Positions 12,732 through 24,730 of a DNA stretch of 24,730 nucleotides are shown here, piece by piece; position 1 is the stretch's first letter, and every line of letters begins with the position of its first letter. The translations under genes were made by a program, and so were the position numbers. The stretch lies in IMG/VR virus record IMGVR_UViG_3300030103_000200, positions 1 through 24,730 of that record. One strand, written 5' to 3'. The DNA comes from a virus. The notes beneath the pieces were generated by a model, which had not been told where the DNA came from, searched no databases, and saw nothing but the letters and a program-made list of their open reading frames with translations.

Positions 12732-15182
12732 ATGCCTGTTATATCAAGAGCTATACCTACATTATTGAGAGGTATATCACAATCTTCTGATGCTTTAAAG
12801 CAACCAGATCATGCTGATATACAAGACAATGCTGATAGTAATCCTGTTCTTGGTCTTACAAAACGCAGTGGTTTTCAGTTTGTGACAGCATTACAATCTT
12901 CAACTCTTGGTAATGTTCACATACAAACTATAAATAGAGATGCAAATGAAAGATATGTAGCAATATTCAGCAATGGCAATGTAAGAGTATTTGAATTAGA
13001 TGGTACTGAACTAACAGTAAACAAACCTGATGGTACTGCCTACTTAAATACTTCTACACCTAGAAGTGTGATGAAGACAGTTACTATTGCTGACTTTACT
13101 TTTGTCGTTAATACAAGTATTACAGCAGCTATGGACTCTACACTTAGCGGTGGTACTGGCACTAAGGCGATTATATTTATTAACCAAGCAACAGCAAGTA
13201 CAACTTATTCTGTGACGATAGATGGAGTGACAGTTACCGATAACACCCAAACCGATTCTACTCTCAGCACAGATACAATAGCTGCTGATTTAAAATCTGG
13301 TCTTGATGCTGGTCTTACTGGTTTTACTATTGCTAGAAATGGTCCTGTTTTATATGTAAGAAAGAATGATAATTCTAATTTTTCTATAGATGGTAGTGAT
13401 ACACAAGGCGATACAAAGATGACAATAATAAAAGATTCAGTACAAAGATTTACTGATCTGCCTACTGTTTCTCCTGATGGTTATGTTGTAGAAATAAAAG
13501 GAGATGACGATACAAACTTTGATAACTATTACGTTAAGTTTGTTACTAACAATGGTGGTGCATTTGAAGAAGGCCAATGGGAAGAAACTGTAGAAGCAGG
13601 TATTCCTTTTAAGTTTGATTATGCAACAATGCCACACGTTCTTATACGTCAGGCAGATGGTAATTTTAGATTTGCAAGAGTAGATGGAGATACATATACA
13701 GCAGGTGGTCAGTCATTTACCTTACCAAAATGGGGAGAGAGAACTGTTGGTGATGTTATATCTGCACCTGACCCTTCTTTTATTGGCAATAAAATTAATA
13801 ATGTATTCTTTTTTAGAAACAGACTTGGGTTTCTTGCAGGGGATAATGTAGTTCTTTCAAGAGTATCAGAGTTTTTTAACTTCTTCCCTGAGACAGTTGT
13901 ATCTGTTTTAGATAATGAACCGATAGACGTAGCTGCTTCTCATACAAAAGTTGCAATACTAAAAAGTGCAGTAACTATGGGAGAAAAACTTATTCTGTTC
14001 TCTGAACAGACGCAGTTTGTATTGACCAGTTCAGCAGATAACCTTACTCCTAAAACAGCTAACGTGATAGTTGTAACTGAATTTGAAAGTAGTGCAGCAG
14101 CACAGCCTGTAGGTTCTGGTTCTTCTATTTATTTCTTAACTCAAAAAGGTTCTTTCGCAGGTATTAGAGAATATATTTTACAGGGAGAATCACAGATAAG
14201 AGATGCAGCAAACGTCACTATTCATGTACCAAGACTCATACCAAGTAATGTATTTAAGATGGCTGTATCTACCAACCAAGATATTCTTGTAGTCTTGGGT
14301 TCAGATAATGCCAATAAATTATATGTATATAGATGGTTATATGGAGATGGTGGACAAAAAGCTTTGAGTGCTTGGTTTACCTACAGCATCAATACAAACA
14401 GGTCTATATTAAATGTTGATTTTATTGGTACAGATTTGTTTGTTGTTATAGAAGAAGCTAATAAAGTAACACTAGAAAAGATACCATTTGAAACTGAGTT
14501 TAGAGAACCTAATGCTAGTTTTGAATATCATCTTGACCATAAAGTAACTGAAGCAACTACAGGAGTATCAGTATCTTATAGCTCTGGTACTGGTCTATCT
14601 ACCTTTACAGTTCCATATCGACTAAGAGCCAACATGAATATTGTTGGTAGATATTTAGGCAGTGGAGAGACAAGCACATTTGTAGATGCTCAAGGAAATA
14701 CAAAGACTCTTACATCAGGACAGGTACTATCAACATCTAACGCAATCAATGGCTCTACTTCTACCATTACAGCGATAGGAGATTACAGAAATAGTAAGTT
14801 TATTATTGGTGAACCTTATGAAATGCACTATAGATTTAGTAAACAAAGGCTAACAGAACAAGGTGCTGGTTCACCTGAGTATGTAGGAGCAAGACTACAG
14901 CTACATCATTTTTATATTAAATACGAAGATGCTGGATTCTTTAAAGTAGAAGTAACACCTGAGAATAGGAATACAAGTACGCATAAATTTACTGGTCGTT
15001 TGCTTGGTGCTGCGTCTGCTGCTATTGGTCAGATAAACCTAGATACAGGTACATTTAAAGTACCGATAATGAGTAAATCTGACAGAGTAGATATAGATAT
15101 AAAAAACGATACATTTCTTCCTACACGTTTAGCCAGTGCAGAATATGAAGGTACATTCCATATAAGGAGTAGAAGAATATAG
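12732..15182 (+). CDS. 12: Tail tubular protein B (nozzle, T7 gp12 type)
   Basis: Forms the tail nozzle through which DNA leaves and to which fibres attach. It has 816 residues; T7 gp12 has 794. The N-terminus (SRAIPTLLRGISQSSDALK) and ITPs such as HADIQDNADSNPVLGLTKRSG are typical of the family. The middle (FFFRNRLGFLAGDNVVLSRV, about residues 357-376, then the segment LFSEQTQFVLTSSADNLTPK) carries the beta-propeller-type signature shared with T7 gp12. The C-terminus ends in beta-rich FHIRSRRI. Residues about 145-230 form a Thr/Ser/Asp-rich beta insertion. The stop overlaps the next gene's GTG start by 1 nt. Confidence 0.95.
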   Translation: MPVISRAIPTLLRGISQSSDALKQPDHADIQDNADSNPVLGLTKRSGFQFVTALQSSTLGNVHIQTINRDANERYVAIFSNGNVRVFELDGTELTVNKPDGTAYLNTSTPRSVMKTVTIADFTFVVNTSITAAMDSTLSGGTGTKAIIFINQATASTTYSVTIDGVTVTDNTQTDSTLSTDTIAADLKSGLDAGLTGFTIARNGPVLYVRKNDNSNFSIDGSDTQGDTKMTIIKDSVQRFTDLPTVSPDGYVVEIKGDDDTNFDNYYVKFVTNNGGAFEEGQWEETVEAGIPFKFDYATMPHVLIRQADGNFRFARVDGDTYTAGGQSFTLPKWGERTVGDVISAPDPSFIGNKINNVFFFRNRLGFLAGDNVVLSRVSEFFNFFPETVVSVLDNEPIDVAASHTKVAILKSAVTMGEKLILFSEQTQFVLTSSADNLTPKTANVIVVTEFESSAAAQPVGSGSSIYFLTQKGSFAGIREYILQGESQIRDAANVTIHVPRLIPSNVFKMAVSTNQDILVVLGSDNANKLYVYRWLYGDGGQKALSAWFTYSINTNRSILNVDFIGTDLFVVIEEANKVTLEKIPFETEFREPNASFEYHLDHKVTEATTGVSVSYSSGTGLSTFTVPYRLRANMNIVGRYLGSGETSTFVDAQGNTKTLTSGQVLSTSNAINGSTSTITAIGDYRNSKFIIGEPYEMHYRFSKQRLTEQGAGSPEYVGARLQLHHFYIKYEDAGFFKVEVTPENRNTSTHKFTGRLLGAASAAIGQINLDTGTFKVPIMSKSDRVDIDIKNDTFLPTRLASAEYEGTFHIRSRRI

Positions 15183-15634
15183 TGGGATATTTAAGAAAAT
15201 CAAAGCTAGAAGATTTTAAATATGTAGTAGAAAACATGAGAGTCATGGACAAGATTGAAGCTTTGTATCAAACAGGCATGAGTCCAGAAGATGCTCTTAG
15301 CTATACCTTTTTAGGTAGTAAGACTAATATGACTATTGCTGATGATGAAGGTCAACCTATAGGTCTATGTGGAGTACAGAAAGATGGTTGTATATGGTGC
15401 GTTGCTACAGATGATTTGTTTGATAATAAAAAATATAGAATACAATTAATAAGACAAGGCAGAAAATGGGTTGATAATCTACTTGAGTCTTATAAAATAC
15501 TTTATAATTATGTATATGCAGAAAACACTTCTGCTATAAAATGGTTAAAAGCTCTTGGGTTTACATTTGTAAATTTACATGAGAGTTATGGTTATCAAAA
15601 AAAACCTTTCTACGAATTTTTAAGGATTGCCTAA
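15182..15634 (+). CDS. 13: gp13-like internal virion protein with GNAT-like fold
   Basis: A 150-residue protein at the position of T7 gene 13, between nozzle and gp14. T7 gp13 is needed for virion assembly and shows remote similarity to GCN5-type acetyltransferases. The same is visible here: NMTIADDEGQPIGLCGV resembles a GNAT beta strand region, and AENTSAIKWLKALGF (residues 113-127) matches the C-terminal GNAT motif. Whether acetyl-CoA is bound is unknown; no clear Q/RxxGxG/A pyrophosphate loop is seen. The start is GTG 15182, overlapping the nozzle stop by 1 nt, with AAGGAG 12 nt upstream (15164-15169), a slightly long spacing. The next gene begins directly after the stop, which favours coupled translation. 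Confidence 0.8.
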   Translation: MGYLRKSKLEDFKYVVENMRVMDKIEALYQTGMSPEDALSYTFLGSKTNMTIADDEGQPIGLCGVQKDGCIWCVATDDLFDNKKYRIQLIRQGRKWVDNLLESYKILYNYVYAENTSAIKWLKALGFTFVNLHESYGYQKKPFYEFLRIA

Positions 15635-16204
15635 ATGTGCGTTACTTCTTTAATACCTGCATTAGAATTAACAGGTAAAGCTGCTGCCGCATTTAATATA
15701 GGCTTGGGTCTTACTGCTGCCAATGCTTTTGTTGGTAGGGCTGCTGCACAGCAAAGAGCAGATCAAACATATAATCAAGCATTAATAGCTAACAGGTCAG
15801 CAGAAGCCGATAAAAGACAAAAACAATTAGCTCTTTCAGAAAGAAAAGCAGAAGAAGAAAAATTTGCAGCACAAGATAAGTTTGCAAAAACTATTGATGC
15901 TTTACAAGCTAGTCGATCTATAATAGCTTCAGAACAAGCAGGTACAACTGTAGGATTATTATTAATGGATCAAGATAGACAAGCTGCTAACTATAGAGAG
16001 AAAGTAAATCAAAGTATTGAATCAATGCAAAGACAGTATCTATTTAATATTCAATCAACAGAGTCACAGTTTGAAGGTAGAAGAAATCAATTACAAAGTA
16101 ATATTAATGAAGCTTATAACGCTATACCAAGTCTAGGTCAAACATTATTAAATATCGGCACTCAAGGTGTTGGTATGTATCTTTCTGCACTTCCAACTGG
16201 TTAA
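15635..16204 (+). CDS. 14: Internal virion (ejection) protein, T7 gp14 type
   Basis: T7 gp14 is the first internal core protein to leave the virion and is thought to form the channel through the outer membrane. This protein has 189 residues (T7 has 196). Like T7 gp14 it begins Met-Cys, followed by a short hydrophobic Ala/Gly-rich N-terminal segment (residues about 5-38) and then a long, Gln/Ala/Lys-rich helical region with coiled-coil character (about 40-150), ending in a hydrophobic Gly-rich tail. It starts immediately after the gp13-like stop (no gap) and is 2 nt before the gp15-like gene. Assignment relies on position, size and composition, and agrees well with T7. Confidence 0.85.
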   Translation: MCVTSLIPALELTGKAAAAFNIGLGLTAANAFVGRAAAQQRADQTYNQALIANRSAEADKRQKQLALSERKAEEEKFAAQDKFAKTIDALQASRSIIASEQAGTTVGLLLMDQDRQAANYREKVNQSIESMQRQYLFNIQSTESQFEGRRNQLQSNINEAYNAIPSLGQTLLNIGTQGVGMYLSALPTG

Positions 16205-16206
16205 TT

Positions 16207-18900
16207 ATGGTTTTACAAGTAGGCACTACAAATTTTCAAAGTACAGCAGGTCAAAGCTCTAGAACTCCTGTAGAAACCTTTGTTAACCCTGTAACTGTTT
16301 TACCTAAAACTGGCTTGATGGGTTTGGCTGAAACCTTATCAGACATCAATCCTACACTACAGAGATTTGTTAACTTTCAAATTGATAAAGCAAAACAAGA
16401 AGGTGTATTAGAAGGACAGAATTTACTTTTAGGTGCTGATGATAAACAAATTACACAGATAAAAAAAGAATTATCTGAAAAGAAAGGCAACAGAATTATG
16501 AGAAATTTTGTTGGTGGAAATATGTATATAGAGTATGGAATTGAAAAACAACTTGCTATGAATTTAGGAAATATAGCAGAAGGTAAAACTAATCAATTCT
16601 TTGCAAATCATATTGTTCAAGTACCAAATAAAGAAGGTGGTACTACTGCTATACCTTTATCTCAGTTTGATGTTAACTCTAAAGAGTTTCAAGGAGCTAT
16701 AAACGAATTTAAAGAAACTCAATTATTAGATACCAAAGGAATAAGACCACAGCTTTTAAATCAATTTTTCTTTCCACAACAAAATGCAGCTTTACGCAAA
16801 GCAATAACTAAACAGGTAGAAGCAAAAGCAGATGCAAACATACAAAATTATACAAGTATGCTTACAGACAGTTCGTTGCTGTATTTTCGTAATATTGATA
16901 AATACAATGAAAATATTGAAGAGAATATTATTGATGCAGATTTTCAAGATGGAGAAAGCTATGCATTATCTTTACTTCAAGAAGATACAAACTATACATA
17001 TAGATTAGGTTTATCAGAGGTCGTTTCTCCGTCAGGTATGATTGAGATAATTAAAAAAAATGGTTATAGAATTTTAAATGATTTTGAAAGAGGAAATATT
17101 TCTTGGGTAGAAGCACAATCTGAGTTAGACGATTATATAGATTTTATGTCAGCAGTATCAGTAGGACCAAGTGGTACTACAAAAGAAGGATTACCAGTAC
17201 AAAAAACACTAGGAGAGTTTTTAGATCAAGATGATAGTATCTTAGAACTTAAAAAAGAAATATATGAAAAGATAAAAGATGCAAACAAAGAAGAACAAGA
17301 CCTTGCAAGCCTATTAAATAAAAAAGATATAACACAAACTTTAGGTAGTATGGATTGGACTTCTATGGATCAGACAACGTATGTCAATAATGTCAAAACT
17401 CTCAAAGCTTTAGTTGCAAGACACAAGGATTTAAAACAATTTATTGTTCAAGAATATAATTTAAGAAATGATAATGTTGATCTTTGGTTTGATAGATTTG
17501 TAAGAGACTATAACAATGGCAAGTTTGGCGATAGAGATAAAGCAAGAGTAAGGCTTGATAGTTTTATGGCTGTACTAGGCTCTACTGCAACTGATGAAGA
17601 TAGAACAAGATATGAAAAAGCTTTGAAATTAATTAATAGAGAAAACTCTCAAGGGGTGTTGTCTTCGTACCCAGAGTTTGAAACTACTCTTAAGAACATG
17701 AAAGAAGCTTTGAGAGAAGATAATAAGTCTGGATATACAGTAGTAAAAGTTGGTTATACAAATGCCTTTAATGACCTCTCAAAACGATATAGAGATAAGA
17801 TTGATAAATGGGCTACAACAGACTATGTAACTCAAAAAGAAAAAGATGAAGCAAAAGATGAAATTATTAAATTTGTGCAATTACAAACAATAAAAATTGT
17901 AGATGGTAACTACATATTTGAAAATCCTTTACTCGAAACTTTATATTATAAAGCAAATCCAAATTTAAAAAAGGAAAATAACAAGAAAATTAAGAACGAA
18001 ATAGAAAAAATGAAAGGATTAGCTGATGGTGGTCCTGTTAAAAAAGATGAACCTGTTATTGTTGGAGAAGAAGGCAGAGAAGTTTTTGTACCAAAAAGTG
18101 ATGGTAAAATAGTATCTAATGAAGTGATACAAAATTCAAATCAAGAAGCTTCTAAAGAAACAGAACAAGAAACTATTTATGAAGTACAAAGTGGAGATAC
18201 TTTAAGTTCTATTGCCGATAAGTTTGAAGGTGTAAATTATTTGAATATTGCTGAATTAAATAATTTAGATACTGAAGAAAAACAAAATAATATTAGTGTT
18301 GGTCAAAAATTTAAAATACCAAAAATAACAATACAAAAATCTAAAGGAGAAATTACACCACTTATAGAAACAAAAACAAATTTATGGAAAGGATTTAATG
18401 GTGCTACTGCTTATGGAAGTGGAGAAAGAAAAGTTGAATTAGAAAAAGATACTAAATATATTAAAAGTGTTATAAATCATGCTTATGCAGATAGTTCAAC
18501 TCCTGAGATACAACAAGAAGCTACAAAGATATATTCTGAATTATTTTATAGCAATAAGCCAGAAGACATCAAAACAAAAAATGCAATAGTTAATATGGTT
18601 TTAACAGAAGCTACCTTAAGTAGTCCAGAAGATATAGCAGGTGTAGTTCAAAGTGTATTTATGAGAGTGGCTAGAGCAAGATTAAATACCATTGACAGAG
18701 ATCGTTTTAAAGAAAATATAATAGAAGAATTAACTAGAAAAGAATTAAATAAAAAAGGTATATTAGTACCTATGTATCAAGGAATAGAAAAGTTTACAGT
18801 AGAAGAAATTACATCTAACAAACCAGTTAAAGAAAGTCAGGAGACTTATAATAAGATCTTTAGTATGTTATGGGAAGATACTTCTCAAAAAGATAAGTAA
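16207..18900 (+). CDS. 15: gp15-like internal virion protein with tape-measure-type motif, LysM and possible cell-wall hydrolase domain
   Basis: Lies in the place of T7 gene 15, whose product (747 residues) is a core and ejection protein; this one has 897 residues. Residues about 1-600 are a largely helical, Lys/Glu/Asn-rich region as expected for gp15. Residues 606-638 carry ADGGPVKKDEPVIVGEEG then REVFVPKSDGKIVSN, a motif usually found near the end of siphovirus/myovirus tape-measure proteins. Residues about 658-705 are a LysM peptidoglycan-binding domain (YEVQSGDTLSSIADKF, ending VGQKFKIPKI). Residues about 785-880 contain MVLTEATLSSPEDIAGVVQS and FMRVARARL, which resemble the core of SleB-type cell-wall hydrolases with E801 as the candidate catalytic residue; this last call is tentative. 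The gene is visibly more AT-rich than the head genes. Its stop overlaps the ATG of the next gene (TAATG). Confidence 0.85.
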   Translation: MVLQVGTTNFQSTAGQSSRTPVETFVNPVTVLPKTGLMGLAETLSDINPTLQRFVNFQIDKAKQEGVLEGQNLLLGADDKQITQIKKELSEKKGNRIMRNFVGGNMYIEYGIEKQLAMNLGNIAEGKTNQFFANHIVQVPNKEGGTTAIPLSQFDVNSKEFQGAINEFKETQLLDTKGIRPQLLNQFFFPQQNAALRKAITKQVEAKADANIQNYTSMLTDSSLLYFRNIDKYNENIEENIIDADFQDGESYALSLLQEDTNYTYRLGLSEVVSPSGMIEIIKKNGYRILNDFERGNISWVEAQSELDDYIDFMSAVSVGPSGTTKEGLPVQKTLGEFLDQDDSILELKKEIYEKIKDANKEEQDLASLLNKKDITQTLGSMDWTSMDQTTYVNNVKTLKALVARHKDLKQFIVQEYNLRNDNVDLWFDRFVRDYNNGKFGDRDKARVRLDSFMAVLGSTATDEDRTRYEKALKLINRENSQGVLSSYPEFETTLKNMKEALREDNKSGYTVVKVGYTNAFNDLSKRYRDKIDKWATTDYVTQKEKDEAKDEIIKFVQLQTIKIVDGNYIFENPLLETLYYKANPNLKKENNKKIKNEIEKMKGLADGGPVKKDEPVIVGEEGREVFVPKSDGKIVSNEVIQNSNQEASKETEQETIYEVQSGDTLSSIADKFEGVNYLNIAELNNLDTEEKQNNISVGQKFKIPKITIQKSKGEITPLIETKTNLWKGFNGATAYGSGERKVELEKDTKYIKSVINHAYADSSTPEIQQEATKIYSELFYSNKPEDIKTKNAIVNMVLTEATLSSPEDIAGVVQSVFMRVARARLNTIDRDRFKENIIEELTRKELNKKGILVPMYQGIEKFTVEEITSNKPVKESQETYNKIFSMLWEDTSQKDK
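18178..18321 (+). other. LysM domain inside the gp15-like protein
   Basis: Residues about 658-705 of the gp15-like product show the LysM pattern: YxVxxGDTLxxIA at the start, a middle NIAELNNLD, and the closing VGQKFKIP. LysM domains bind GlcNAc-containing glycans such as peptidoglycan, which fits a role in wall crossing during DNA ejection. Confidence 0.88.
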
Positions 18901-21900
18901 TGACTTTTACACCATCAAACAACAACATAGGTTATGAAAACGAAGAAAAGCCTACTGTTGATATAGGCATTGAAAATGAAAAGAAACCTACTTTAGATAT
19001 AAATATAGATCAAAAGTTTCAAGAAATAATTTCTGAAAATCAAACAACTGATAATACAACAGAAGAACAGCAGCCAGAAGTTGAGTTTGAAAATGTCTTT
19101 GATAATAAAAAAATATTTAATATGGATAAAAGTTGGATAGATTGGGATACAGAATATAACTTTAGTGATTACACAAATACTTTTTTACAAGATGGTGAAG
19201 AGCCATTTGATTTATATGCAGAACCAAATGATAAGACAAGAAATATATTCAATAAAACTATAGACTTTTCAGTTGGAGAAGATACTGTACCAAACCTTGA
19301 AGCACGTTTAAAATTTTTAAGTGTTTATGATTTTATAAAAGGTAATCAGTTTACTAACTTAGGTTTTAATAATAAACCAATTAAAGGTTTAAGAGATAGA
19401 CAGCAGTTTTTCAAGTTAATAAAACAAGAAACAGGTTTTACAGGTGAAGAGTTTTTAGGAAACAAGATACCTAGAGAAAAAGTAGAAAGCGAAGAGTTCC
19501 AAAAAGGTCTTGCAAATGTAATGAAACATTATGAAGACAAAGGTTTTACTATTAATATGCTTGAAGCTGATGACGAGTCACAACTAAATAAGTTAGCAAA
19601 AGGTTTAGGTATAGAGATAGGTGTAGGTATAACAGCAGATTATGTATTTGCACCTTTACTAATGGGTAATGGTTGGTCTAAAGCTATATATGCTCTTGGT
19701 CAATTTTCAGTAGGTTATACAGCAAATATAGAAGCACAAAAACAAAGAGTAAAAGAAGAAGACAGAGTAAATTTTAAACCTAATCAGAATGAAGCTGTTG
19801 CAGCAGGTTTTACACAAATTATTCCTTTTGGTGTAACTCTAAAAGGTTGGAAAGGTGTAGCTGCGTCAGGTGGTTATGGTGGAACGATTGCTACTACTGA
19901 AACTTTTTTAAGAGATATATTAGGAGATGACGTAACTTTAGATGAATACTATGCTTCATTTGGTTTAGGTGCTGCTTTTGGTACTGGATTTAAAGTCTCT
20001 ATTGACGGATTAGATAAGATATTTACTAAATATAAAAATTATAAATTTGATAAAACAAACAACATATTTAACTTGAACAAAAAAGAAGTTCAAGTTGTAG
20101 AGGAAGCAAACGAAAACATAACTAAAGCAAATAAAGTTTTAAAAAATGATATAGAAAGTAAAGGAGAAAATTACGACAACATTGGAGAAAAGTTAAAAAA
20201 CGAAGGTTCTGGTACAAGTAGTCAAACAAATACAAGACCTATAGATGGTTCTGTCAGAACATATATAATGCCTAATCAATTTAAAAATACAAAACCTAAC
20301 TATGGAGATGCACCAATAATTTTTCAATCTGATTTTGATAAGATGGCTTGGTATTTGAGATATAAGAAAACAAAACCACCAAAGTACGCAGATAAAATTT
20401 TAGAAAGTTTTATTACTCAAGGTTTTACCGAAGCAGAAATAAGACAACATGGAACTAACATACATGAAAAAATAAAACAGATAGTTATTGATAAAACAGG
20501 TAACGCAAAAGCAGGTCAAGGTAACACAGTAGGACTAACAATAGAAGTACCTGCTGATGCTAAATATTCCCAAGAAGTGCAAACAAGTATTACTGGCAAA
20601 AAACAAAACTTAGGCGATCTTACAAAGAATCCTCAATCAGTTGCTTTTATTAAAGAATTTAAACCAAGACAACAAGAATTAGTAGAATCAATAATCAGGC
20701 AATTAAAAGATGAAGATGTTTTTGTAGGCTCTAAAAGCCAAGTACAAACAAGGCTTGAAGGTCTAGGTATGTTTGATAAAGGAGTTGTTAAGTTATCTAA
20801 TACAAGTGCGATAAAAGAATATGCAGAAATGTATGCAAAGATGTATAACCTAGTTCCTAGTGATTCTTTAAATTTTGCAGTTGCACAAGTTATAACACTC
20901 GCAACAGAAAACGTAGCTAATAAGAACCAAATAATGATGGACCTTATTAAGACAAAAGATTCTGCAAAGATACAGAAAAGTATTGATGATCTGTTTGAAG
21001 CACTAACAGATGTAGAAGAATGGTTAACACTAGGTCTGCCACTAAGAACACAAGCAGGTAGAACTGTTAAGTCTTTTGGTATGAAGACAGAGCAAGGTAT
21101 AGAAGGCAAAACAGTTGAAGAGATAACAGGTATGACACCTGCTGAGAAAGCTGCTGCTACTGCTAAAGTACCTGAGTTACAAATAGATATTGATGACGCA
21201 ATATCAAGAAATCAATTATTAAAAACTAGACTTACAGAAGCTTTAGAGGAAGCTACAAAAACAGGAGATTATTCAAAGTTAAATCAAGCAGCAGTTACTT
21301 TAAAAGCAGCAAGTGGTGATCCTAGAAAACTTGTTGCAATACAAAATCAAGATGCTATCTCTACTTCACTTATAAAAGGATTAGACAAAGGTGCAAGAAT
21401 TATAAATGAAATTGGTATTAATGCTGTTCTTTCTGGTCCTAATACACAAGCAATAAATTTATATTCTGGTGCAATGATGACATTTATGAAAGCAATGAAT
21501 AATTTTGTAGGTGCTAGTAGTGTTCAAGAATTAAGGGCAGCACAACAATATATGTCTTATTTATTTTATAACTTAGATTTTGGTGTAAATGCTTGGAAAA
21601 GATCATGGGATATGGAAGACAATTTTATCAATGTTGGAAATGTTAAAGGAGATACAGGTCAACGATTTATTATATCTTCAGATTCTAGCTTCTGGCCTTT
21701 AAGAGCTTATGACGAGTTTGGAAGAATCATAAGACTACCTAGTAGATTAATGACAGCTAATGATGCCTTAATACAAGCACCTAATATTATTGCTGCTACT
21801 GCATTTGAAGCTTTTAATGAAGGTGTTGGTAGAAATTTAGAAGGAGAAGATTTAACAAAATATATAAAAGGAACTGTAGATGGTGTTATATCTTATTTAC

Positions 21901-23768
21901 TTAGAGGTCAAGAAGGAACTTTAGGTAGAATTGATCCATTAGATGAAGGAGTAGTTGGACCAAGACAAATGCAACCAACTGATGCAGTAATACAAAGAAT
22001 ACTTACAAGAGCAAAAGAAGTTGGTAAAACTATTACCTTTACTCAAGACATAAGAACAGACAGTTATTTTGGTAAAGGTGCAAAGTTTATAAATGATGCA
22101 GCTATAAACAATCCAGCAGTTAGATTTTATTTTAAATTTACAAGAACTCCAACCAATATGTTTTTAGAAACTGCAAGATACTTGCCAATAGTAAATATGC
22201 CAATACAAGTTACATTACCAAGTGGACAGAGAGTAAACCTAAATCGTGTCAATCAGTTTCTTTTGCCTGATATGGTTGCTGACTTAAATAGTCCAGACCC
22301 TTATGTTCGTCAACAGGCAAATGGTCAAATAAGAATGGGTGCTGCACTTGGTACTTTAATGTTATTTCTAACTAATAAACAATTTGAAGATGTAGATGAC
22401 GAATATAAAAAAGAATTTTTAACAGGTGGTGGTCCTAATTTTTATACCAAAGAAGGTGCTGCACAATGGATTTCTATGTATAAAAATGGTTGGCGACCTT
22501 ATAGTAAAGCTGTTTTACAGTATGACGAGAATGGCGATCCTTTGCTAAGAAATGGTAAGCCTGTATATATCTATAAGAGTCTTGAGTTTATACCCGATCC
22601 ACTAGCTTCTTTAGTTAGAACTTGGTTAGATTTTGCTGAGATGCAGCCGTGGTTGCCTGATGAAGGAGAAGGAGTAATGGAATATGTAGGAACTTGGTTT
22701 GCTTTTGTTGGTCGTAATATGTTTGGTAAAACATATACAAGTCAAATATCAGAGCTATTGAAAATTCTTTCAGCAGGTGGACAACTAACTGAACAAGGTA
22801 TAGATGAAGGTTTGAAATATCGAGACAAAAAACTTCTTGATTATATTGGTAGGCAAGTATCCGCTAACTTCCCTTATTCAAGTTTGTTTAAAAGACTTGC
22901 AAGAGTACCAGCAGCTATAAAAGAAACAATGGGATTTAATGAGGAAGATGCTAAAGCTTTGTTTGAATCAACAGGCGATCCTACACAATTAAGAAAATTT
23001 ATAAAACGTGATTCAAAAACATACTCAGGAGATGGTGCTAATGAAAGCTTGCCATATAGTGACGAAGATTTTAATAAAGCAAATTATATAGTACAAGCTC
23101 TTGAAAATACAGTAGATAAGATGTTTAAAGAAATCGTACCTTTAAATGTAGGAGGTAAGCTTCCTTCACAAGTAGAGCATATAACTAATAATGTAATAAC
23201 TTATCCACGTAAAGAAGGAGGTCTTTTTCAATTTATCTACAATAGACCTATAGGAGAAAGTCAAAACTTTTTAGTTCTTGATGTGCAAGCTGAAATAGGT
23301 AAAATGTTACCTCCACCGCCAGATATTATAAGAGGATCAGTATTACCTAATTTAAGATCAGCAGACTTCATACCAAAAAAATTAGATAGAAATGAATATA
23401 ATACTTTGAAAAAAATTACAAACCTTGTAGAACTAAAATATAAAGGTAGAAATATGAATATAAAAGAAGCTATCAATGCAGAGATAAATACAGATTATAT
23501 ACAACTACGAAGAAATACTATTAAAAATTATGGATTACAAAGTGAAGAAGGACAAAGAGCATCAGAAGAAATATTCCAAGAATTATCTAAGATAAATACC
23601 AAATATATAAAAGCAGGTATGATAGAGTATATGCAAACTGAAATGACAGAAGAAGATAGAAATAATAGAATAAATGCAGTTGAAGAAAAGAATCAAAACT
23701 TTAATGATGTATTGCTTAAAGAGTTTGATAAACTTAACTTAGGTACATTTAACAATAGTTCCTTTTAA
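18900..23768 (+). CDS. 16: gp16-like internal virion (ejection) protein
   Basis: The largest protein of the window, 1622 residues; T7 gp16 has 1318. T7 gp16 forms the inner part of the internal core, enters the host cell and helps pull in DNA. The N-terminus has a 12-residue tandem repeat (residues 11-22 and 23-34) inside an acidic, disordered stretch. Residues about 235-370 hold several Gly/Ala-rich hydrophobic segments (GIEIGVGITADYVFAPLL, AVAAGFTQIIPFGVTLKG, YYASFGLGAAFGTGFKVSI), consistent with membrane insertion. The rest is helical, with conserved-looking segments such as VLSGPNTQAINLYSG and PSRLMTANDALIQAPN. I see no lytic transglycosylase (SLT) motif where T7 gp16 carries one. Composition is AT-rich. 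The start is the TAATG overlap with the gp15-like gene; the tail fibre gene follows 2 nt after the stop. Confidence 0.85.
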   Translation: MTFTPSNNNIGYENEEKPTVDIGIENEKKPTLDINIDQKFQEIISENQTTDNTTEEQQPEVEFENVFDNKKIFNMDKSWIDWDTEYNFSDYTNTFLQDGEEPFDLYAEPNDKTRNIFNKTIDFSVGEDTVPNLEARLKFLSVYDFIKGNQFTNLGFNNKPIKGLRDRQQFFKLIKQETGFTGEEFLGNKIPREKVESEEFQKGLANVMKHYEDKGFTINMLEADDESQLNKLAKGLGIEIGVGITADYVFAPLLMGNGWSKAIYALGQFSVGYTANIEAQKQRVKEEDRVNFKPNQNEAVAAGFTQIIPFGVTLKGWKGVAASGGYGGTIATTETFLRDILGDDVTLDEYYASFGLGAAFGTGFKVSIDGLDKIFTKYKNYKFDKTNNIFNLNKKEVQVVEEANENITKANKVLKNDIESKGENYDNIGEKLKNEGSGTSSQTNTRPIDGSVRTYIMPNQFKNTKPNYGDAPIIFQSDFDKMAWYLRYKKTKPPKYADKILESFITQGFTEAEIRQHGTNIHEKIKQIVIDKTGNAKAGQGNTVGLTIEVPADAKYSQEVQTSITGKKQNLGDLTKNPQSVAFIKEFKPRQQELVESIIRQLKDEDVFVGSKSQVQTRLEGLGMFDKGVVKLSNTSAIKEYAEMYAKMYNLVPSDSLNFAVAQVITLATENVANKNQIMMDLIKTKDSAKIQKSIDDLFEALTDVEEWLTLGLPLRTQAGRTVKSFGMKTEQGIEGKTVEEITGMTPAEKAAATAKVPELQIDIDDAISRNQLLKTRLTEALEEATKTGDYSKLNQAAVTLKAASGDPRKLVAIQNQDAISTSLIKGLDKGARIINEIGINAVLSGPNTQAINLYSGAMMTFMKAMNNFVGASSVQELRAAQQYMSYLFYNLDFGVNAWKRSWDMEDNFINVGNVKGDTGQRFIISSDSSFWPLRAYDEFGRIIRLPSRLMTANDALIQAPNIIAATAFEAFNEGVGRNLEGEDLTKYIKGTVDGVISYLLRGQEGTLGRIDPLDEGVVGPRQMQPTDAVIQRILTRAKEVGKTITFTQDIRTDSYFGKGAKFINDAAINNPAVRFYFKFTRTPTNMFLETARYLPIVNMPIQVTLPSGQRVNLNRVNQFLLPDMVADLNSPDPYVRQQANGQIRMGAALGTLMLFLTNKQFEDVDDEYKKEFLTGGGPNFYTKEGAAQWISMYKNGWRPYSKAVLQYDENGDPLLRNGKPVYIYKSLEFIPDPLASLVRTWLDFAEMQPWLPDEGEGVMEYVGTWFAFVGRNMFGKTYTSQISELLKILSAGGQLTEQGIDEGLKYRDKKLLDYIGRQVSANFPYSSLFKRLARVPAAIKETMGFNEEDAKALFESTGDPTQLRKFIKRDSKTYSGDGANESLPYSDEDFNKANYIVQALENTVDKMFKEIVPLNVGGKLPSQVEHITNNVITYPRKEGGLFQFIYNRPIGESQNFLVLDVQAEIGKMLPPPPDIIRGSVLPNLRSADFIPKKLDRNEYNTLKKITNLVELKYKGRNMNIKEAINAEINTDYIQLRRNTIKNYGLQSEEGQRASEEIFQELSKINTKYIKAGMIEYMQTEMTEEDRNNRINAVEEKNQNFNDVLLKEFDKLNLGTFNNSSF
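18930..19001 (+). repeat. Tandem 12-residue coding repeat at the N-terminus of the gp16-like protein
   Basis: Two adjacent 36-nt units encode GYENEEKPTVDI (18930-18965) and GIENEKKPTLDI (18966-19001), 8 of 12 residues identical and the rest mostly conservative. They lie in an acidic N-terminal extension and may be a short binding motif in duplicate. Confidence 0.75.
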
Positions 23769-23770
23769 TC

Positions 23771-24730
23771 ATGGCTACTAACACCACAGCGACAGCAACA
23801 ACACATACTGGTAATGGTAGTACCAATAATTTTGCAATATCTTTTTCGTTCTTAGCCAACAATGAGGTAGATGTAACAGTAGCAGGGGTCTTAAAAACAT
23901 TAGATACTCATTACACAATAAGCGGATCAACAGTTACCTTTACTTCTGGTAATACCCCTGCTAATGGTGCTGCTGTTAAGTTTCAAAGAGATACAAATAT
24001 AAGTGCAAAGAAAGTAGATTTTCAAGATGGTAGTGTTTTAACAGAAACAGATTTAGATACAAACAGCGATCAGGTATTATTTGCTCAACAAGAAATTACA
24101 GATAAATTAGGTGGTATTGAAGAAGGAGCTACAGGAGATCAGACAGCAGCAGAGATCAGAACATTAGTAGAAAGTGCAACAGATAGTAATGTCTTTACAG
24201 ACGCAGATCATACAAAGCTTAATGGTATAGAAACTGCTGCTACAGCAGACCAGACTGCTAGTGAAATAAGAACACTTGTTGAAAGTGCTAGTGATAGCAA
24301 CGTGTTTACTGATGCAGACCATACTAAGTTGAATGGTATTGAAGCAAGTGCAACTGCTGACCAAACTGCTGCTGAGATAAGAACCTTAGTAGAGTCAGCA
24401 ACAGACTCTAATGTATTTACAGATGCAGACCATACAAAACTAAATGCTATTGAAGCAGGTGCTACCGCAGATCAAACAGTATCAGAAATCAAAAGTCTTA
24501 TAGCTGGTAGTCCTCTTGATGCAAGTCATCTTGCAGCAAACTCAGTTACTACTTCTGAAATAGCAGATGCAGAACTAACAACACTAGCTGGTATGCAATC
24601 AGGTACAGCTTCTAAGTTAGCTGATAGTACCGCCCTAACTGCTGACCTTGCCGATCTAAACCAGTTAGATGGTATGGCAAAGCAGACAACTATAACTGAT
24701 GATGATACAAAGTTTCCTACCTCTGGTGCT
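23771..24730 (+). CDS. 17: Tail fibre protein, T7 gp17-type N-terminus, cut by right window edge
   Basis: Receptor-binding fibre attached to the nozzle. 320 codons are open to the last base, so the gene is incomplete at its 3' end. Residues about 1-115 (THTGNGSTNNFAISFSFLAN, then VDFQDGSVLTETDLDTNSDQ) match the pattern of the T7 gp17 N-terminal tail-attachment domain: GxxxxFxIxFxFLA, then FxDGSVLTExDL. Residues 115-225 are three tandem 37-residue repeats, followed by a degenerate fourth and the beginning of a Ser/Thr/Ala-rich shaft. The receptor-binding tip lies beyond the window. It follows the gp16-like gene by 2 nt, as in T7 order. No good ribosome binding site is visible, so coupling to the upstream gene is likely. 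Confidence 0.93.
   Translation, partial: MATNTTATATTHTGNGSTNNFAISFSFLANNEVDVTVAGVLKTLDTHYTISGSTVTFTSGNTPANGAAVKFQRDTNISAKKVDFQDGSVLTETDLDTNSDQVLFAQQEITDKLGGIEEGATGDQTAAEIRTLVESATDSNVFTDADHTKLNGIETAATADQTASEIRTLVESASDSNVFTDADHTKLNGIEASATADQTAAEIRTLVESATDSNVFTDADHTKLNAIEAGATADQTVSEIKSLIAGSPLDASHLAANSVTTSEIADAELTTLAGMQSGTASKLADSTALTADLADLNQLDGMAKQTTITDDDTKFPTSGA
24113..24556 (+). repeat. Three 111-nt tandem repeats plus a degenerate fourth in the tail fibre gene
   Basis: Units 24113-24223, 24224-24334 and 24335-24445 each encode 37 residues of the pattern GIExxATxDQTAxEIRTLVES then AxDSNVFTDADHTKLN. A fourth unit (24446-24556) starts AIEAGATADQTVSEI and then diverges. Protein identity between the first three is very high, while many third codon positions differ. 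The repeats probably form part of a trimeric fibre shaft. Confidence 0.9.

Follow-up and report, generated by a model that had tools for sequence, protein, structure and literature searches.

In T7, a periplasmic tunnel is formed by gp15 and the transglycosylase is brought by gp16 (PMC8954989). In K1E and K1-5, a lysozyme is borne on the gp15-like protein (K1E gp35), so that a hydrolase carried by gp15 rather than by gp16 already has a precedent (PMC8954989). Indeed, Pfam locates a phage lysozyme domain (PF00959, E=3.9e-10) at residues 776-910 of the 982 residues of K1E gp35, and the gp16-like protein of K1E is without hydrolase. Among cyanophages, g20 and g21 of P-SCSP1a and g29 and g31 of P-SCSP2 were left unannotated in the paper reporting the isolation of MPP-C phages (PMC9860041). 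A survey of domain shuffling in phage proteins does not mention ejection proteins by that name (PMC10684548), and a search of the open-access literature found no description of an ejection protein with alternative hydrolase cassettes.

The window analyzed here is a 24,730-base IMG/VR virus record having a T7-type gene order. Pfam models match the tube (PF17212), the nozzle (PF25675), gp13 (PF11090), and gp14 (PF24072), which are followed by a gp15-like and a gp16-like gene. This gives the order gp11-gp12-gp13-gp14-[gp15]-[gp16]-fibre, and the gp15-like gene occupies the gp15 position of a T7-type ejection cluster (Table 1). The label gp15-like refers to gene order and size. In the same region, the gp13-like protein has weak additional matches to acetyltransferases, one of the GNAT type (PF00583, E=0.0068) and one in PHROGs (phrog_1249, E=2e-4). 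At the end of the window, a fibre-like open reading frame (23771-24730) that runs off the contig contains several near-identical copies of a unit of about 36 amino acids, ATADQTASEIRTLVESASDSNVFTDADHTKLNGIE.

Table 1. Position of the gp15-like protein, of its parts and of neighboring genes in the window.
Feature	Position	Strand	Basis
gp13-like protein (context)	15182..15634	+	PF11090 E=9.1e-11; phrog_308 E=9.7e-35
gp14-like internal virion protein (context)	15635..16204	+	PF24072 T7_gp14 E=3.8e-7, above cut-off
gp15-like ejection protein, 897 aa	16207..18900	+	ORF between gp14-like and gp16-like genes; homologue of P-SCSP2 g29
Conserved N-terminal core, about residues 1-604	16207..18018	+	common to all relatives, whatever the C-terminal domain
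Tape-measure-type motif, residues 608-638	18028..18120	+	DNA identity of relatives with differing cassettes stops within or just after the motif
LysM domain, residues 658-705	18178..18321	+	PF01476 E=2.7e-11
C-terminal domain, residues 706-897, putative wall hydrolase	18322..18897	+	family alignments; AF2 models; replacement by GH73/SLT_3
E801, candidate catalytic glutamate, helix end	18607..18609	+	invariant; AF2 model; paired with SleB Glu
R820, 19 residues past E801	18664..18666	+	in SleB proteins, the Arg of 'NR' lies equally far past the Glu
gp16-like protein, 1622 aa, no detectable hydrolase domain	18900..23768	+	Pfam, PHROGs

The gp15-like protein is homologous to g29 of P-SCSP2 across most of its length, with 29-32% identity. 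The initial annotation concerned its residues 606-897, in which a tape-measure motif, a LysM domain and a SleB-like segment had been described. The motif reads GGPVKKDEPVIVGEEGREVFVPKSDGKIVSN. A tblastn search with the stretch that carries it (residues 600-652) retrieved 66 records from phages under an E-value limit of 1, the best one at 2e-5. Many of the top matches are annotated as tape measure proteins, and the matches include siphophage tape measure proteins from Vibrio, Pelagibacter, and Roseobacter phages and from cyanophages, which bears out the proposed identity of the motif. The LysM domain was recovered at exactly the residues first given for it, with 43.7 bits for a cut-off of 20.9 and a match to the full-length model (1-43 of 43).

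Relatives were gathered by searching with the whole gp15-like protein, with the gp16-like protein and with the core. The first ~640 residues are common to these proteins, which then have differing endings. Besides that of the window, two endings are found, both above Pfam cut-offs: a glucosaminidase of family GH73 (PF01832, E=1.8e-13) and a LysM domain followed by an SLT_3 transglycosylase (E=2e-9). Among 48 distinct 3'-complete proteins, 34 have the window-type ending (a number biased upward, since this domain itself was the query that retrieved some of the loci), 11 have GH73 and 3 have SLT; none is devoid of an ending. In the subgroup of the window, the core of ~600 residues leads into the tape-measure-type motif, after which comes one of the three endings. 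In the P-SCSP2 subgroup, the window-type domain occurs without LysM and without the motif. Mapped on a tree of the shared core, the endings require at least eight changes, and the well-supported branches force at least three to four changes per type.

Comparisons of close relatives locate these changes. The DNA of L005 (LysM and window-type domain) and that of L009 (GH73) are 98.2% identical from the start of gp15 up to the motif, a stretch of 1869 nt. Past the motif the cassettes are unrelated, and 98-100% identity resumes near the start of gp16. The same break of identity is seen in L004/L008 and in L041/L040. The pattern in these three pairs is cassette exchange, and the gp16-like partner stays ~90% or more identical while the gp15 cassette swaps. 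As all 48 proteins end in one of three domains and at least eight changes are counted on the tree, the view that the end of the gp15-like protein is a wall-hydrolase slot is supported. Such a three-way exchange of endings seems unreported. It shows that a podovirus can swap its likely entry enzyme like a cassette while the gp16-like partner stays nearly constant, a pattern consistent with tunnel and hydrolase being loosely coupled. The genes at L005:5551-8232 and L009:7521-9953 form a natural near-isogenic pair over the gp15 region with unrelated C-terminal cassettes, and pairs of this kind make it possible to examine whether the enzyme is selected by the chemistry of the host wall.

The gp16-like protein had been described as free of any wall-degrading motif, and this holds. 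Pfam detects no hydrolase in the protein of the window or in nine relatives, whereas with the same library T7 gp16 gives SLT at residues 15-127 with E=1.7e-31. The verdict rests on Pfam, since small-profile hhalign of T7 gp16 against an SLT set failed as a positive control. An alternative is that gp16 holds a hidden transglycosylase, the ending of gp15 being merely auxiliary. N-terminal segments of gp16 do match the SleB profile locally at P=0.0014 in one narrow alignment. However, this match weakened to P=0.06 once the alignment was widened, no sensible active site was aligned, and ten gp16 proteins are silent in a search that readily finds the T7 enzyme. The match is best read as chance, and the hidden enzyme appears highly improbable. 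Since near-identical relatives carry an unambiguous GH73 or SLT domain on gp15, and since gp16 of the group has no detectable hydrolase, wall degradation appears to sit on the gp15-like rather than on the gp16-like core protein, a placement that is well supported. The initial suggestion that wall crossing had moved to another core protein stands as to location, but the putative enzyme of the window itself is not recognized by any family model.

Some observations concern gp16 and other genes of the cultured phages. In P-SCSP1a, g21 (L148:6789-14504) lies in the gp16 position and encodes ~2570 amino acids, about twice the size of T7 gp16. In P-SCSP2, g31 (L002:25387-28698) was proposed to be an internal virion protein (PMC9860041); its N-terminus matches the T7 tail fibre model (Phage_T7_tail, PF03906, E=5.7e-18), so that g31 looks like a tail-fibre protein and g30 is the gp16-like gene. 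Also in P-SCSP2, a protein annotated as hypothetical (L002:35301-36251) has an ArdC anti-restriction N-domain (PF08401, E=1e-15) and an MPTase-PolyVal domain (PF18818, E=1e-28).

The C-terminal domain of the gp15-like protein, ~190 amino acids long and conserved from about residue 729 onward, contains E801, which is invariant across all aligned family members. In IMG/VR, two subfamilies of the domain, ~40% identical, both have E801 and many other invariant residues. Among annotated phages, Prochlorococcus phage P-SCSP2 alone has a clear homologue, and no relative of the domain was found in the genomes of 84,980 species. A match to Vibrio phage 1.090.B (E=5) was judged to be due to chance. Residues 706-897 taken alone and 25 family members gave no hydrolase match in Pfam or PHROGs. 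An M15-type peptidase, considered from a 'SHAYAD' stretch, was dropped, the spacing being wrong with respect to the motif.

AlphaFold2 gave a poor model for the sequence of the window (pLDDT 64), with which structure search was uninformative. For the domain of L024, which is 43% identical to that of the window and identical to P-SCSP2 over the C-terminal stretch, the model is confident (pLDDT 88.6, pTM 0.87). It predicts a small sheet followed by helices, the equivalent of E801 (residue 86 of the model) ending helix 70-86. A Foldseek search of PDB and BFVD with this model returned nothing convincing, be it a solved structure or a hydrolase. The domain has a confident predicted fold whose solved counterpart was not found by Foldseek. 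The initial annotation had itself named a structure prediction with no hydrolase fold as a result that would speak against its hydrolase call, and the confident model indeed has no hydrolase fold match.

Could the domain be a true SleB (Hydrolase_2) enzyme, with E801 as its catalytic acid and perhaps a truncated or rearranged C-terminal part? A SleB profile was built from SleB-type domains, 90 in all, of phages and viral contigs; a CwlJ-like seed served solely to fetch annotated phage SleB proteins. With hhalign, the C-terminal domain aligns with this set at P=0.007, the 55 aligned columns lying in the first half of SleB, whereas SLT and GH73 profiles give P=0.35 and 0.44. E801 and R820 fall on the conserved Glu and Arg of SleB in the expected register, 19 residues apart in both. 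In the E-A...NR context of SleB, E801-A802 and R820 are in register, with M in place of N. Among 400 column shuffles, 4 score as high against the SleB profile and 3 match both residues; none combines the SleB score with the Glu match. On the other hand, the Pfam model PF07486 (Hydrolase_2, cut-off 27 bits) was run on four phages of the group and matched nothing at E<=10, and SleB in PDB was not matched by Foldseek with the L024 model, a search that could miss a fold that is permuted or truncated. The alignment is limited to the first half of SleB; its core G and N, and its downstream tail with H.F, have no counterpart in the domain. Placing the C-terminal hairpin of SleB first, as in a circular permutation, produced a resemblance that was visually convincing (GA..Y...H.[YF]) and gave no signal in the profile test: the N-terminal half scored 7.28 against the SleB tail, compared with a mean of 6.8 for shuffled versions, 32 of 100 being as high. 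In addition, the unrelated gp16 segments mentioned above scored higher in their narrow alignment, before fading with the wider one.

The similarity to the SleB profile is marginal and near chance, suggestive but not proof. As this marginal signal comes with no structural match, assignment at the family level is unsupported: SleB membership of the domain of the window is not supported, and a true SleB enzyme can be put forward only tentatively. The 'SleB-like segment' of the initial annotation, on which Pfam, including PF07486, and PHROGs are silent, does not stand as a family call. Its candidate catalytic residue is an invariant Glu that pairs with that of SleB.

In spite of this, the reading that we prefer, and that we consider probable, is that the gp15-like protein ends in an exchangeable wall-crossing module in which the domain of the window most likely acts as a peptidoglycan hydrolase, be it a strongly diverged relative of SleB or a new family. 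The domain is probably a wall hydrolase of an unrecognized or highly diverged family because the slot is filled by GH73 or SLT in relatives; replacement by enzymes means equal position, not equal activity. The LysM domain, the hydrolase-free gp16, the similar placement of enzymes in P-SCSP1a, S-CBP3, and K1E and, weakly, the SleB profile with its Glu and Arg in register point the same way; the silence of every family model and of the structure search goes against it. That same silence would be expected if the domain were a non-enzymatic wall- or receptor-binding or assembly domain that stands in for the hydrolase in some phages and has LysM as its binding partner; the P-SCSP2-type version, which lacks LysM, suggests that the domain may itself bind. 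We regard this as rather unlikely: the domain alternates with two known enzyme families in near-identical phages, and a scan of the gp16-like protein and of ten further P-SCSP2 proteins revealed no other wall hydrolase. Within the hydrolase reading, it is conceivable, if somewhat doubtful, that the domain is a new hydrolase family with a new fold, so far seen only in marine T7-like phages and competing with GH73 and SLT for the slot. If so, natural phage pairs would differ only in the wall bond that is cut on entry.

With a hydrolase in the slot, we infer that the gp15-like core would deliver its own enzyme on a C-terminal arm. The core would be packaged in the virion, exit through the tail and line a periplasmic tunnel like T7 gp15, while the arm would take the hydrolase into the periplasm. 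There, LysM, in those members that have it, could anchor the hydrolase on peptidoglycan, and the enzyme would open the wall locally for the tunnel and the DNA. Ejection proteins that were left unannotated in abundant cyanophages (PMC9860041) thereby acquire a candidate function.

Two further proteins of cultured cyanopodoviruses in the gp15 position, P-SCSP1a g20 (L148:3925-6786) and S-CBP3_0051 (L149:5694-8669), are annotated as 'hypothetical' and yet have SLT_3 near their C-termini, at residues 838-930 of 953 (E=1.1e-13) and 774-856 of 991 (E=5.4e-13), respectively. No recognizable hydrolase was found in gp15 or gp16 of HTVC200P, CRP-227, and P-SSP7.

The group of the window shares features with several known systems. 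As in T7 gp16, a wall hydrolase would be carried by the ejection core; however, the T7 transglycosylase is N-terminal on gp16, whereas the module of the window's group is C-terminal on gp15. K1E gp35 is closer, being a gp15-like protein that bears its hydrolase toward the C-terminus, next to a gp16-like protein that has none, but its enzyme belongs to the phage lysozyme family, no LysM was found in it, and no exchange of cassettes between close relatives is described for it (PMC8954989). Among cyanophages, P-SCSP2 g29 is homologous along most of the protein and shares the ending of the window, but without LysM, and the C-terminal enzyme of P-SCSP1a g20, SLT_3, differs from the ending of the window. 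With SleB/CwlJ (PF07486), the domain shares the Glu and the Arg 19 residues later, in register, and a marginal profile similarity; yet it lies below every family threshold, has no structural match and is devoid of the SleB C-terminal part. Finally, the motif GGxV..PVIVGExGxEVFVP is shared with siphophage tape measure proteins, whereas the rest of the protein is gp15-like, that of a podoviral ejection protein and not of a tail tape measure.
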